In this document: positions 2,629-9,488 of the stretch, piece by piece
How positions within the stretch are numbered: the first letter of the stretch is position 1
Layout: each line of letters opens with the position of its first letter
Virus record (IMG/VR): IMGVR_UViG_3300010885_066606
Coordinates: 1 to 22,082 of that record
DNA from: a virus
DNA length: 22,082 nt
Direction: 5' to 3' (one strand)
Notes under the pieces: model-generated
What the model saw: the letters and a program-made list of their open reading frames with translations, nothing else
Told to the model about the DNA's origin: nothing
Database searches by the model: none
Position numbers and translations under genes: made by a program

Positions 2629-2688
2629 TTAGAAAAAGTCGAGCTGTGAGTCGAGCTGTGAGTCGAGCTGTGAATTAATTTCTTTCAT
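2629..2688 (-). CDS. Mini SQLx repeat ORF, 19 aa
   Basis: ATG at 2688 to TAA at 2629-2631 encodes MKEINSQLDSQLDSQLDFF: the same leader as the longer arrays with only three SQLD units. Its ATG overlaps the TGA of the larger array upstream (ATGA), so it could be translated by re-initiation. It is either a minimal cassette or a remnant left by repeat deletion. The three units are identical at DNA level (CAGCTCGACTCA). Confidence 0.5.
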   Translation of the reverse strand: MKEINSQLDSQLDSQLDFF

Positions 2689-2882
2689 ATCTTGGAATTT
2701 TCTAGCTGTGACCAGAGCTGTGAGGCGAGCTGTGAGGCGGGCTGTGAGGCGGGCTGTGAGTCGAGTGGATGCCAAAGCTGTGAGGCGAGCTGTGAGGCGA
2801 GCTGTGAGCTGAGCTGCCAGTAGAGCTGTGAGGCGAGCTGTGAGCTGAGCTGCCAGTCGAGCTGTGAATTAATTTCTTTCAT
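2685..2882 (-). CDS. SQLx tetrapeptide-repeat protein (array A), 65 aa
   Basis: After MKEIN the whole protein consists of tetrads: SQLD, WQLS, SQLA, SQLY, WQLS, SQLA, SQLA, SQLW, HPLD, SQPA, SQPA, SQLA, SQLW, SQLE, then NSKI. Each tetrad comes from a 12-bp unit, CAG CTC NNN TCA, with Gln, Leu and Ser codons nearly fixed and one variable codon. I chose the ATG at 2882 because MKEIN recurs in the other arrays; the frame is open to 2972 but that stretch covers a terminator hairpin and the conserved leader. The stop overlaps the next ATG. The array is GC-rich compared with its surroundings. Molecular role unknown; similar Q[VL]xx tetrads occur, from memory, inside DUF6745 proteins. Confidence 0.7.
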   Translation of the reverse strand: MKEINSQLDWQLSSQLASQLYWQLSSQLASQLASQLWHPLDSQPASQPASQLASQLWSQLENSKI

Positions 2883-4281: not shown

Positions 4282-4431
4282 TTATTTATCAGATCTATAT
4301 CGTTCTATCAATCCTTTTGTATAAATTTTCAAACTTCCTAATTTTATATCTACTCCATTAAATGTAAGATAAAAAGTAAATAGGAGAAACGATATTATCC
4401 TAACGGTATTTAATTTATTAATGTTTTTCAT
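4282..4431 (-). CDS. Small membrane-anchored protein, 49 aa
   Basis: ATG at 4431 to TAA at 4282-4284 encodes 49 residues: a basic start (MKNINKLNTVR), a hydrophobic helix (IISFLLFTFYLTF) and a polar tail (NGVDIKLGSLKIYTKGLIER). The start overlaps the TGA of array B by 4 bases (ATGA), just as the mini-array overlaps array A, so it should be translated with the array. The first residues and helix could also be a signal sequence. Function unknown. Confidence 0.55.
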   Translation of the reverse strand: MKNINKLNTVRIISFLLFTFYLTFNGVDIKLGSLKIYTKGLIERYRSDK

Positions 4432-4589
4432 ATTTTGGAATTTTTTAGCTGCCAGTCGAGCTGCAAGTCGAGCTGTGAGAAGAGCTGTGAGAAGAGCTGT
4501 GAGTAGAGCTGTGACCAGAGCTGTGAGACGAGCTGTGAGTAGAGCTGTGAGTAGAGCTGTGAGTCGAGCTGTGAGTTAATTTGTTTCAT
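4428..4589 (-). CDS. SQLx tetrapeptide-repeat protein (array B), 53 aa
   Basis: After MKQIN the tetrads are SQLD, SQLY, SQLY, SQLV, SQLW, SQLY, SQLF, SQLF, SQLD, LQLD, WQLK, then NSKI, the same C-terminus as array A. The ATG at 4589 lies one base after the stop of the gene at 4591-4791; the frame is open to 4649, but starting there would overlap that gene by about 60 bases and lose the conserved leader. This array has no upstream copy of the conserved leader and lacks the W[RH]PL unit found in most others. It is probably transcribed with its neighbours. Confidence 0.7.
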   Translation of the reverse strand: MKQINSQLDSQLYSQLYSQLVSQLWSQLYSQLFSQLFSQLDLQLDWQLKNSKI

Positions 4590-4806: not shown

Positions 4807-5031
4807 CTAAAACGTCATTTCTAATTGTGAAATAAGCTGTAAATCAAGCTGTAAATCAAGCTGTAAATCAAGCTGTAAATCAAGTCTTGAATAGATTTGT
4901 GAATGGATTTGTGAGTCGAGCTGTGAGGCGAGTGGACGCCAAAGCTGTGACCTGAGCGTTGACCAGAGAGGTGAGTAGGACTGTAAGACGAATTGACGCT
5001 GACGTTGTGAACTAAAACTAATTTCCTTCAT
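4807..5031 (-). CDS. SQLx tetrapeptide-repeat protein (array C), 74 aa, diverged
   Basis: The protein begins MKEISFSSQRQRQFVLQSYS and then enters tetrads: PLWS, TLRS, QLWR, PLAS, QLDS, QIHS, QIYS, RLDL, then four QLDL-type units and QLIS, ending QLEMTF. The N-terminal third has drifted from the 12-bp consensus while leucine spacing of four is kept from residue 22. The DNA units in the C-terminal part differ from the other arrays (AGCTGTAAATCA on the plus strand instead of AGCTGTGAGTCG), so this array has expanded independently. The W[RH]PL unit is present. It follows the putative structured RNA at 5047-5138. Confidence 0.65.
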   Translation of the reverse strand: MKEISFSSQRQRQFVLQSYSPLWSTLRSQLWRPLASQLDSQIHSQIYSRLDLQLDLQLDLQLDLQLISQLEMTF

Positions 5032-6398: not shown

Positions 6399-6767
6399 TT
6401 AATCAAGTACGCGTTCCATTAAACGGCTATATGGGTTATACGAATTTTGAATATAGATTTCATAAATACCCGATGGAAGATGCAACGGCTTATGATCCGC
6501 TATAGGTAATTCTTTTGTGGACACCCAGTCACTCTCTTTGAAGTAATTCTCGTGGACGTGTTGCATGGTCGCACCATCGCTACCAACAGCTGCGAAGAAT
6601 GTTCCATCTTCTGCCATAAATAGTTCAACATCTCCTGTCAAGCAGTGTTGATGTCCTGAATGCTCACCATAAGCGACTGGTTGATTCTTAACTTTCTTCA
6701 GATTCTTTGGAAGCTCTGATATTTGACGACCTTGAACGTCTCCTTGGTGGAATACTAACTTTTTCAT
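6399..6767 (-). CDS. QGDV/GEHSGH-family small protein, 122 aa
   Basis: The sequence carries the motifs of a widespread uncharacterised small-protein family: HQGDV at 7-11, a conserved hinge PKNLKKVKNQPVAYGEHSGH at about 20-39 followed by QH, a beta-rich middle, MQHVHE near 68-73, and a C-terminus ADHKPLHLPSGIYEI (90-104) then NSYNPYSRLMERVLD. The clustered His residues (38, 41, 70, 72, 92) may bind metal; this is inference. From memory, homologues are often encoded beside DUF6745 genes, which matches the position here. It shares its upstream element with the DUF6745-like gene, so the two are probably co-expressed partners. Confidence 0.6.
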   Translation of the reverse strand: MKKLVFHQGDVQGRQISELPKNLKKVKNQPVAYGEHSGHQHCLTGDVELFMAEDGTFFAAVGSDGATMQHVHENYFKESDWVSTKELPIADHKPLHLPSGIYEIYIQNSYNPYSRLMERVLD

Positions 6768-6915: not shown

Positions 6916-7149
6916 CTAGATCATTTCAGAGTTGGCTTTACGACCACGAACCATGTCAAAAACTTCATTCATGATCCGAGCATTAAACTCCTTGCCTGCG
7001 ATTACATCGCTACAATGTGTCAAAGAATACCCAGTGCGATTTGCTACTCGAGTTACATCGCCTTTACGGATACGACGGTTGGCTATGACGGCCTTTTGAA
7101 TGTACGTACGAGTCTGATAGCTCGTCGGACGATTGCTTGTGTTTCTCAT
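6916..7149 (-). CDS. Small basic helix-turn-helix-like protein, 77 aa
   Basis: The protein is basic and carries a likely helix-turn-helix at about residues 28-52 (RKGDVTRVANRTGYSLTHCS followed by DVIAGK), where the pattern DVTxVAxxTGYSxxHxSDVxxGK resembles lambda-repressor-type HTH proteins. The tail ends VFDMVRGRKANSEMI. It is probably a DNA-binding regulator acting in the cytoplasm. It has its own promoter-like upstream sequence and its own terminator, and is encoded between the QGDV-family gene and the tandem SQLx block, so it is a reasonable candidate regulator of those genes. Confidence 0.6.
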   Translation of the reverse strand: MRNTSNRPTSYQTRTYIQKAVIANRRIRKGDVTRVANRTGYSLTHCSDVIAGKEFNARIMNEVFDMVRGRKANSEMI

Positions 7150-7224
7150 TTTTGAGATTTTATTTAGTTAACAATAGATACAATATAAAAATAAACGATT
7201 TTTTTGAAGAATAAAAATTTTTGT

Positions 7225-7416
7225 TTAGAGTAATCTGAGCTGTGAGTAGAGCGGTGAGTAGAGCGGTAAGTAGAGCTGTGAGCCGAGCTGTGAGTCGAGT
7301 GGACGCCAAAGCTGTGAGCTGAGCTGTGAGCTGAGCTGTGAGGCGAGCTGTGAGTAGAGCTGTGAGCGGAGCTGTGAGTCGAGCTGCCAGTCGAGCTGTG
7401 AATTAATTTCTTTCAT
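7225..7416 (-). CDS. SQLx tetrapeptide-repeat protein (array D), 63 aa
   Basis: MKEIN is followed by SQLD, WQLD, SQLR, SQLY, SQLA, SQLS, SQLS, SQLW, RPLD, SQLG, SQLY, LPLY, SPLY, SQLR, LL. The W unit is the eighth, as in array A, and the first two units also match A in part. Variable codons are GAC, CGC, TAC, GCC, AGC, TGG and GGC, so mostly the first two bases change and the third is C. Gln, Leu and Ser codons are almost always CAG, CTC and TCA. The leader at 7417-7441 provides a likely promoter. Role unknown. Confidence 0.7.
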   Translation of the reverse strand: MKEINSQLDWQLDSQLRSQLYSQLASQLSSQLSSQLWRPLDSQLGSQLYLPLYSPLYSQLRLL

Positions 7417-7441
7417 AAACCTTGATTTGTTAGAATATAAA
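7417..7441 (-). promoter_or_regulatory. Leader of array D (gene-proximal half conserved)
   Basis: The first 24-25 bases upstream of the ATG match the leaders of arrays A, E and F. Beyond that the sequence switches to a block (TCTTCAAAAAAATCGTTT on the minus strand) that also lies upstream of the HTH gene, showing recombination between upstream regions. Confidence 0.45.
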
Positions 7442-7476
7442 AAAAAACGATTTTTTTGAAGAATAAAAATTTTTGT

Positions 7477-7656
7477 TTAGAGTAATCTGAGCTGTGAGTG
7501 GAGCTGTGAGTAGTGCTGTGAGACGAGCTGTGACCGGAGCTGTGACCGGAGCTGTGACCGGAGCTGTGAGTCGAGTGGATGCCAAAGCTGTGAGGCGAGC
7601 TGTGTGGCGAGCTGTGAGTAGAGCTGTGAGCGGAGCTGTGAATTAATTTCTTTCAT
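7477..7656 (-). CDS. SQLx tetrapeptide-repeat protein (array E), 59 aa
   Basis: ATG at 7656 to TAA at 7477-7479. After MKEIN the tetrads are SQLR, SQLY, SQLA, TQLA, SQLW, HPLD, SQLR, SQLR, SQLR, SQLV, SQHY, SQLH, SQLR, then LL. Three consecutive CGG units look like a recent local duplication. Two units depart from the consensus by single bases (TQL, SQH). The start, end and flanks are the same as in arrays D and F, and the full leader lies upstream. Confidence 0.7.
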   Translation of the reverse strand: MKEINSQLRSQLYSQLATQLASQLWHPLDSQLRSQLRSQLRSQLVSQHYSQLHSQLRLL

Positions 7657-7708
7657 AAACCTTGATTTGTTAGAATATAAAAGTACAAAACTAATTTGAT
7701 CTAGAAAA
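7657..7708 (-). promoter_or_regulatory. Conserved leader of array E
   Basis: The 52-base leader is the same as at 7909-7960 and nearly the same as at 2883-2934. On the minus strand it includes TAGTTTTGTACTTTTATATT; TAGTTTTG fits the Bacteroidetes -7 consensus. No -33 box is evident. Confidence 0.5.
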
Positions 7709-7716
7709 ATTTTTGT

Positions 7717-7908
7717 TTAGAGTAATCTGAGCTGTGAGTAGAGCTGTGAGCCGAGCTGTGAGTAGAGCTGTGACCGGAGCTGTGAGACGAGCTGTGACCG
7801 GAGCTGTGACCGGAGCTGTGAGTCGAGCTGTGAGTGGAGCTGTGAGTGGAGCTGTGAGGCGAGTGGACGCCAAAGCTGTGAGTCGAGCTGTGAATTAATT
7901 TCTTTCAT
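7717..7908 (-). CDS. SQLx tetrapeptide-repeat protein (array F), 63 aa
   Basis: MKEIN is followed by SQLD, SQLW, RPLA, SQLH, SQLH, SQLD, SQLR, SQLR, SQLV, SQLR, SQLY, SQLG, SQLY, SQLR, LL. The W[RH]PL unit is the second to third here instead of the eighth to ninth. Other frames of the array are also open because the 12-bp unit contains no stop, but only this frame shares the leader and the stop with the other arrays. The three-residue end SQLRLL and flank match arrays D and E. Confidence 0.7.
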   Translation of the reverse strand: MKEINSQLDSQLWRPLASQLHSQLHSQLDSQLRSQLRSQLVSQLRSQLYSQLGSQLYSQLRLL

Positions 7909-7960
7909 AAACCTTGATTTGTTAGAATATAAAAGTACAAAACTAATTTGATCTAGAAAA
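7909..7960 (-). promoter_or_regulatory. Conserved leader of array F
   Basis: Same leader as at 7657-7708, lying just after the stop of array G. It should allow separate transcription of array F from the HNH/array G operon upstream. Confidence 0.5.
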
Positions 7961-7968
7961 GTTTTTGT

Positions 7969-8169
7969 TTAAAGTGATGTATTAATTCTCCAATTTAATG
8001 GAATCATTACTTTGAACTTTATCCTATCTTCGAGTTTATCATGTAATTTCCACTCGAGTTGATTTCTTATTACAGATCTAATTTTGAAATTATCATCTAT
8101 TACTCTATTCATAGGAATCCATAATAATGAAGTGAGCTTATTAATAAATGTAGAATTTATCTCTTTCAT
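7969..8169 (-). CDS. Diverged tetrad protein (array G), 66 aa
   Basis: This gene starts MKEINS and ends in the same TAAACAAAAA flank as arrays D-F, but its DNA has no 12-bp repeat and normal AT-rich composition. Hydrophobic residues still fall on every fourth position: 8, 12, 16, 20, 24 (F, L, L, M, I) and, after a two-residue shift, 30 to 66 without exception (I, I, L, L, L, I, V, L, I, L). LWIPM at 16-20 and MIPLN at 55-59 match the LW[RH]PL unit of the other arrays. The tetrad pattern is therefore kept at protein level. The ATG overlaps the stop of the HNH-like gene by 4 bases (ATGA). Confidence 0.7.
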   Translation of the reverse strand: MKEINSTFINKLTSLLWIPMNRVIDDNFKIRSVIRNQLEWKLHDKLEDRIKFKVMIPLNWRINTSL

Positions 8170-9488
8170 CGATAGTCTATAAGATCTTCTATATCTGGAT
8201 GAGTCATATCTTTAGTCTGACTATTGGGAGATTCTTTTAATCTGTCCTCTTTTGCTTTGACATTCTCAGCCATGTCTTTAACCCCAAGATGTTTAAGATG
8301 TTCCAAGTAAAAATCATCTATCTTATAGAATGATTCTAGCTCTTTTGGGGCATCAGGGGATTCAGGCGCAATTGCTTGTAAGACCTGACGTTTAGCCTTC
8401 GTAAAGTAGTCAAGAGATAGCAAGAATGAACAATTATAACATAGCCACCTAAGATTATCTTCTCTCCAATCAGTTCTGTCATTATTTTTGAAGTTAAGTA
8501 ATAGTGGCATCTTCATATCTATAGGTCTCTTTTGTGAGAATTCACACTCGGCGCAACAGAATCCAAGTCTACCATCCTTCATTAGTCTTGATGCTAGTTC
8601 ATCTACTCGTACTGGAGTCGAATATTGACCTTGGATAAGTTGATACCCTAATTCTAAAGCTCGAGGGTTGACTTGATTCCTGGATGCTTTCCTTACTTTG
8701 GGTACGCCCTTGCCACCAGTCGCTGTATGGATATCAAATAGAGTTCTACCATTGATTGGATCTACGTACATCTTGGCATATTTCCTCCAAGTCTTATATG
8801 TTACTCTCAACCAAGAGGCCGCCTCTTTATTACTACGTGTATTTTTTATTGCACTACGTACTAATTCCTCAGAGAGCTGAAGTCCCTTATATTTATGTTC
8901 ATCTAGTATTACATGTCCGGGTTTAAATCTTGCTTCCTCGAATGCCTGCTTTCTCGCCTTTAGTTTATCAAACCAACCAGATTCTTTTCTTGCTAAAAAT
9001 CTCTCATAATTAATCTTTCTCCACTTCTCATATTGAAGTTCAAATAATGTCATTCCAGTCTCATCATCAGTATACATCTGAGCATACTTCTTCCAAGCGT
9101 CCCTAGATATTTCCATTATCTCAGCTGCTTCTCTATTAGAATTACTAATAGCCATTGCGTCTAAAACTTGCTGTTTGGTTAACTCAAGTTTATTATTATT
9201 AGATTTATTGTCAATTTTAATCCCCTTTTTACCCTCGCCAACCTTATTCGCCTTCTCTACGAGTAGTGCTTTGCGTTGGAGTTCTAGCAATGTAAGTCCT
9301 GTCTCTGCATCTAAGTACTTATTAGCCCAAGTCTTAAACCGCATTTCACTTACATTAATGAATCTAGCAGCTCTATTTATGTGATTAGAATGTTGTAGAG
9401 CTTTACGTATATCAGACTCGGAGATTACAAATTGTGCCGCATGTGATTTCCATGCTTTCTTGGGATCATCGAATAGACCTGAAGACAT
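8166..9488 (-). CDS. HNH-like zinc protein with three HTH-like repeats, 440 aa
   Basis: Three similar segments of about 50 residues lie at 23-71, 103-152 and 205-253. Each has the order helix, N.[ER]AA..[IL].[VI]......[KT]W..YA..Y.D..[TN]G.TL[FL][ED][IL], a likely helix-turn-helix followed by a shared tail. A zinc site follows (Cys312/Cys315 and Cys350/Cys353) enclosing LLNFKNNDRTDWREDNLRWL, the layout of an HNH nuclease, yet the usual catalytic His residues are replaced (LNF for HH, and Ser after the last Cys). So it probably binds DNA but may not cut it, or the true catalytic residues are elsewhere. Related proteins are known among phage homing-type endonucleases. Start is ATG at 9488. Confidence 0.6.
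   Translation of the reverse strand: MSSGLFDDPKKAWKSHAAQFVISESDIRKALQHSNHINRAARFINVSEMRFKTWANKYLDAETGLTLLELQRKALLVEKANKVGEGKKGIKIDNKSNNNKLELTKQQVLDAMAISNSNREAAEIMEISRDAWKKYAQMYTDDETGMTLFELQYEKWRKINYERFLARKESGWFDKLKARKQAFEEARFKPGHVILDEHKYKGLQLSEELVRSAIKNTRSNKEAASWLRVTYKTWRKYAKMYVDPINGRTLFDIHTATGGKGVPKVRKASRNQVNPRALELGYQLIQGQYSTPVRVDELASRLMKDGRLGFCCAECEFSQKRPIDMKMPLLLNFKNNDRTDWREDNLRWLCYNCSFLLSLDYFTKAKRQVLQAIAPESPDAPKELESFYKIDDFYLEHLKHLGVKDMAENVKAKEDRLKESPNSQTKDMTHPDIEDLIDYR

Follow-up and report, generated by a model that had tools for sequence, protein, structure and literature searches.

Low-complexity arrays with a 12-bp period are usually put down to slippage of the DNA rather than to a property of the encoded protein. 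Among proteins built from short units, the pentapeptide repeat proteins need small residues two places ahead of the hydrophobic residue of each unit. These proteins (PF00805; PMC8145042) resemble the tetrad class discussed here in their short repeats, their hydrophobic residues at fixed places and their variable exposed residues; however, the pentapeptide unit A(D/N)LXX has a period of five, not four, and neither the arrays nor G, the small protein at the centre of this work, matched PF00805 in a Pfam scan. Moreover, the residues two places ahead of the tetrad residue in G include large ones (W, F, I), unlike those of the pentapeptide repeats. The PARCELs (PMC2996958) are likewise amphipathic repeats in coding DNA, spread by horizontal transfer, in which hydrophobic positions are conserved and hydrophilic ones vary; their unit is palindromic and 25 residues long, against four residues here, and their abstract draws no tie to DUF6745. 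The closest known system is that of the DUF6745 (PF20530) proteins of phages and bacteria, which carry SQLx-type tetrapeptide arrays just before the domain. In the literature searched, neither DUF6745 nor the SQLx repeats were the subject of any paper.

The window analysed here, a stretch of viral DNA of 22,082 nucleotides (IMG/VR record IMGVR_UViG_3300010885_066606), encodes an array-less relative of these proteins with free arrays nearby (Table 1). In comparison with the DUF6745 proteins, G is a separate ORF without the domain. At the end of array B, a small membrane-like protein beginning MK[KN]INKLN (4282-4431) starts within the array through an ATGA overlap, and the pair is preserved in L001, L002 and L004.

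Table 1. Coordinates of the genes, free arrays and leader around G in the window
Feature	Coordinates	Strand	Remarks
Free SQLx array A	2685..2882	-	Leader as in D-F
Free SQLx array B	4428..4589	-	Overlaps start of next gene; position conserved in relatives
Free array C, partly degenerate SQLx	4807..5031	-	Conserved position after DUF6745
Array-less DUF6745-like protein, 340 aa	5210..6232	-	Below Pfam gathering score; linked by alignment A2 and iterated profile
122-aa partner gene	6399..6767	-	Neighbour of DUF6745 genes at many loci; gp175 in Ma-LMM01
77-aa gene	6916..7149	-	Next conserved gene past G in relatives
Leader of 77-aa gene	7150..7224	-	True source of the "3' flank" common to G, F, E and D
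Free SQLx array D	7225..7416	-	Own leader
Free SQLx array E	7477..7656	-	Own leader
Free SQLx array F	7717..7908	-	Own leader
ORF G	7969..8169	-	66 aa, non-repetitive tetrad protein; tetrad positions hydrophobic 17/17
HTH/HNH-endonuclease-like gene	8166..9488	-	Adjoins G upstream; stop overlaps G start (ATGA), likewise in all relatives

The translation of G, MKEINSTFINKLTSLLWIPMNRVIDDNFKIRSVIRNQLEWKLHDKLEDRIKFKVMIPLNWRINTSL, is hydrophobic at every fourth residue from 4 to 28 and, after a single shift of +2, again from 30 to 66. A preliminary description of this DNA had named 15 of these positions; all of them are hydrophobic, and with I4 and F28 added the count rises to 17 of 17. Shuffling the residues of G, which is equivalent to shuffling its codons, never reached 17 in 20,000 trials with free phase and one free break, and a larger set of 100,000 codon shuffles gave a top score of 16, seen once. 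Real proteins make a harder null: among 12,792 non-repetitive 66-aa windows drawn from the fetched loci and matched to G by hydrophobic content, with repetitive windows left out, the maximum was 13. When windows of any composition were admitted, 15 of 286,388 non-repetitive ones reached 17, and the examples listed among those 15 come from one extremely hydrophobic protein rich in M, V and L. That the four-residue rhythm of G is not due to chance is supported.

This rhythm is kept without any DNA repeat, as had been described. Tandem Repeats Finder (TRF) reported no 12-bp array inside G, and at lag 12 its DNA has an identity of 0.34, compared with 0.69 for array F. G does begin with MKEIN, and it shows the likeness of LWIPM to the LW[RH]PL of the arrays; in this motif W17 is invariant among the known versions of G and P19 is found in five of six. 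In the second half of the protein the strongest hydrophobic period is two rather than four, because W40, F52, I56 and W60 sit between the tetrad positions; such a period could be produced by a beta strand.

We found six distinct versions of G: those of the window, L001, L002, L003, L004 (identical in L005-L009) and L010, five of them in freshwater phage contig types. A second, profile-guided scan for more distant homologues brought no additions, and tblastn gave no match in deposited phage genomes. There was also no match to G in the close relative contig behind L014, which begins within array D, so that G is perhaps uncovered there. The other versions are 58-83% identical to that of the window. 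Between the latter and its nearest relative, L001, dS is 0.86 and dN 0.12, and across the nearer relatives the pairwise values are 0.8-0.9 and 0.12-0.17; dN is much smaller than dS, and the protein thus evolves under purifying selection. Among the six versions 11 of the 17 tetrad columns vary, yet 15 hold only L, I, V, M or F, the exceptions being K30 in L010 and T34 in L004. The spacing is thus retained among homologues, as expected if the preliminary description was right in placing selection on the protein, and the rhythm of G reflects protein-level selection, not DNA slippage alone. Small length changes do occur, with two residues deleted near the start in L004 and one additional residue near the end in L001.

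The genomic setting of G tells a different story from the one first proposed, in which G had lost its repeats within a series formed with arrays D-F. In all relatives G is a single-copy syntenic gene whose start overlaps the stop of the HNH/HTH-type gene, and the genes that follow are the same everywhere, namely the 77-aa gene, the 122-aa gene and the DUF6745-like gene. None of the six versions contains repeats. The 3' flank that G shares with D-F had been taken as evidence of kinship, and we reject this argument, since this flank serves the 77-aa gene as its leader and occurs in array-less relatives: L001, L002, L003 and L010 have it some 100 nt past the G stop, with no array there. In the window it is D, E and F that separate G from the 77-aa gene, each array with the leader TATATTCTAACAAATCAAGGTTT, and the 77-aa-gene leader has been copied along with them. 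The leader TATATTCTAACAAATCAAGGTTT also precedes array A and is absent from G. Because D-F have this leader and G does not, and because the flank belongs to the 77-aa gene, G is a conserved gene and not a decayed fourth copy of D-F, which are a late insertion limited to the lineage of the window. The last codons of the window G (S-L-stop) appear to derive from the 77-aa-gene leader. The sharing of one leader by several arrays suggests a duplicating or mobile array cassette that may carry its own promoter. The same leader, found in the window within 7150-7971 for D, E and F and again at array A, seems to be present in L012 and L015 too.

Are the SQLx arrays themselves proteins? Scans with degenerate codons over viral contigs and genomes placed them in 93 loci, and most lie in frame within proteins with a C-terminal DUF6745 (E = 7e-32 in L118), just on the N-terminal side of the domain, in many phages and in some bacteria. 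In these proteins the array is 4 to 57 units long. Among 107 DUF6745-like ORFs, 76 carry an SQLx-type array, and for none of these 76 does the listing show a free array in the 3 kb downstream; the remaining 31 are array-less, and 21 of them are followed by free arrays within that distance. Many of these ORFs come from near-identical contigs, with the G phages, L034, L078 and L084 as separate lineages, and array-free cases are under-sampled because the loci were fetched for holding arrays. It is in these four lineages, the first including the window, that an array-less DUF6745 protein is followed by free arrays. The PF20530 gathering score is passed by L118, L078, Ma-LMM01 gp174 and prophiGD102-1 gp38; the array-less protein of the window fails it (18.6 against 27), and G has no match. 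The best viral-model match of the DUF6745 scaffold is the annotated DUF6745 of Microcystis phage LMM01, and the 122-aa partner (gp175 in Ma-LMM01) is often in the same locus.

It could be argued that the arrays act as DNA, namely as repeats for recombination or protein binding, with their reading frames a by-product of the 12-bp period and G a bystander gene. When arrays are inspected singly, their 9-bp SQL core is indeed almost perfectly homogeneous, and their antisense frames are open too. However, from phage to phage the dominant 9-mer that encodes the core takes 32 different forms, with both TCN and AGY serine codons in use, although in a set selected for SQL, as the scan was made by peptide. 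In addition, DUF6745 relatives exchange the entire array with the rhythm intact: cta39025, with a DUF6745 protein that shares 60% identity with that of L118, has SSLx, and prophiGD102-1 gp38 has a [DG]QLx array at the same place. Together with the in-frame position, these exchanges make a role as DNA very improbable in our view. Since they are in frame inside DUF6745 proteins and written in many synonymous codon sets, the SQLx arrays are shown to be real protein modules tied to DUF6745, either in frame or as free ORFs nearby, and this part of the preliminary description holds.

Several further observations concern this family. Other tetrad arrays ([DG]QLx, SSLx, [DA]SVx) occupy the same position in the DUF6745 proteins of L253 (1245-2690), L254 (1510-2787) and L071 (5774-6595), and one array type can give way entirely to another between proteins with about 60% identity elsewhere. 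Arrays of the [DA]SV[WRG] type were found in 45 DUF6745 ORFs. A second family, with an N-terminus resembling NPxxPF...LLKEW (L262, L271, L303, L315, L335 and others), also has [DA]SV[WRG] arrays and gave no match to the DUF6745 profile. The 122-aa family (6399-6767 in the window; L252 602-973; L253 857-1252) adjoins DUF6745 genes in many phages and also in some bacteria; it had no match in Pfam, nor did the member of the window in NCBIfam or PADLOC.

Whether G belongs with these arrays is a separate question. We searched 21,837 ORFs, taken in all frames from about 250 loci, with a profile built from the six G proteins; this collection had been gathered by array searches. After G itself, the top matches were almost all SQLx arrays, with one from another phage, L078, first. 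With MKEIN removed from the profile, its score was reached in 0 of 150 trials when all columns were shuffled and in 1-7 of 150 when only the non-tetrad columns were, whereas shuffling columns within a unit position cost no score, as expected of a repeat. The likeness of G to the arrays therefore lies in the register and in the class of residue found at each unit place; either a decayed repeat or a shared fold would be expected to show this. The same core profile gave a median of 7.7 bits on 125 SQLx arrays, against -0.3 on 56 [DA]SVx arrays and -0.9 on 247 other tetrad-hydrophobic repeats. In the reverse direction, an SQLx profile ranked five of the six G members 1, 2, 3, 6 and 11 among 19,598 non-repetitive ORFs; the G of L010 came first with E = 0.0033, the only convincing E-value, and the G of the window scored 9.6 bits. 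Elsewhere in the units of G the class-level match to SQL-type residues exceeds that of the controls, and literal S-Q-L units are few. One further match, to MutH (PF02976), was rejected because it is partial, reaches 18.7 bits against a cut-off of 23 and occurs in four of six members; it seemingly is driven by the LW.P motif.

An alternative is that G is an unrelated small phage protein that met the packing rule of the SQLx arrays by convergence, through a helix or strand pattern, and that MKEIN is simply a common A-rich start. This would fit an old syntenic gene that is free of repeats in six versions, the lack of any signal from unit order in the profile shuffles, the red herring of the 3' flank, and the neighbouring non-array genes of the G phages, which also begin MKKIN or MKEIK. 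It does not account so well for the fact that G is closer to SQLx than to 303 other tetrad-type arrays, with a likeness that reaches the residue classes between the hydrophobics; in addition, a start of the form MK[EQKND]I[NHSD] occurred in none of 1,280 long phage ORFs, which come from many unrelated phages and make a weak control. We regard convergence as a serious minority reading. Given modest E-values, six members that are not independent of one another, and databases assembled through searches for arrays, common descent of G and the SQLx arrays is likely but not proven. The earlier view of G as a diverged array member is therefore favoured by the profile tests and stops short of demonstrated descent; the 12-bp tandem DNA repeats of the SQLx arrays and the 5' leader of D-F are absent from G, and the 3' flank belongs to the next gene.

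The "defined tetrad fold" that had been claimed did not emerge from the models. AlphaFold2 gave G as one long helix (residues 2-64; mean pLDDT 81), with pLDDT of about 90 at residues 11-50 and 62-65 for the last 16. The DUF6745 scaffold of L118 was modelled well, and its array was helical with pLDDT mostly below 50. A simple amphipathic helix fails to explain the register, because a strict period of four winds around an alpha helix; the hydrophobic power of G at 3.6 is low, and the model is nevertheless one helix. A helix, a right-handed coiled assembly and a beta-type solenoid are all candidate structures. Searches for solved structures related to G, or to the DUF6745 scaffold, found none. 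The single PDB match of the DUF6745 profile, 23fj, was set aside because it is confined to profile positions 91-174, the array columns. Matches to libraries of anti-phage defence were weak only, one of them to an array, and were taken as chance.

The low-confidence helices predicted for the arrays, and their low-complexity range of 4 to 57 units among DUF6745 proteins, would also suit a view of G and the arrays as spacers of tunable length or stalks for oligomerisation, in which the x residues take no part in binding. We hold this to be unlikely, as the x alphabet is narrow and recurs across unrelated arrays (in SQLx mostly D, Y, R, G and W, then S, N, H and E; in SVx W, R and G), and as the C-terminal half of G is strongly conserved across its versions.

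Judging from these comparisons, we moderately favour a reading in which G is a genuine small phage protein that keeps an SQLx-like register without DNA repeats and most likely represents a member of the same tetrad-repeat class that has diverged and become fixed. Its chain would follow the unit plan of the SQLx arrays (x, polar, polar or P, hydrophobic). We infer that the tetrad chain is an extended rod, probably helical, in which every fourth residue packs on partner chains while the x residues (D, Y, R, G, W and others) face outwards. Recombination between the repeats of an array would quickly reshuffle the string of x residues and so offer a variable binding surface; in G this surface would be fixed, which would be more in keeping with a constant adaptor or assembly partner than with a variable binder. 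Against placing G in the class stand the lone convincing E-value of L010, the +2 break at 28-30, the stronger period of two in the second half, K30 in L010, and T34 with the two-residue deletion in L004.

More tentatively, it is possible, though we would not expect it, that a phage tetrapeptide-repeat class (SQLx, SSLx, [DG]QLx, [DA]SVx), carried in cis or in trans by the DUF6745 and 122-aa cassette, constitutes a reshufflable binding code of one residue per repeat, of which G is a frozen member. If true, this frozen, non-repetitive protein would mark the tetrad as a true protein fold. With a relative-like protein that keeps the rhythm, and with arrays in frame in a widespread phage family, a four-residue-repeat fold with a variable residue becomes testable.
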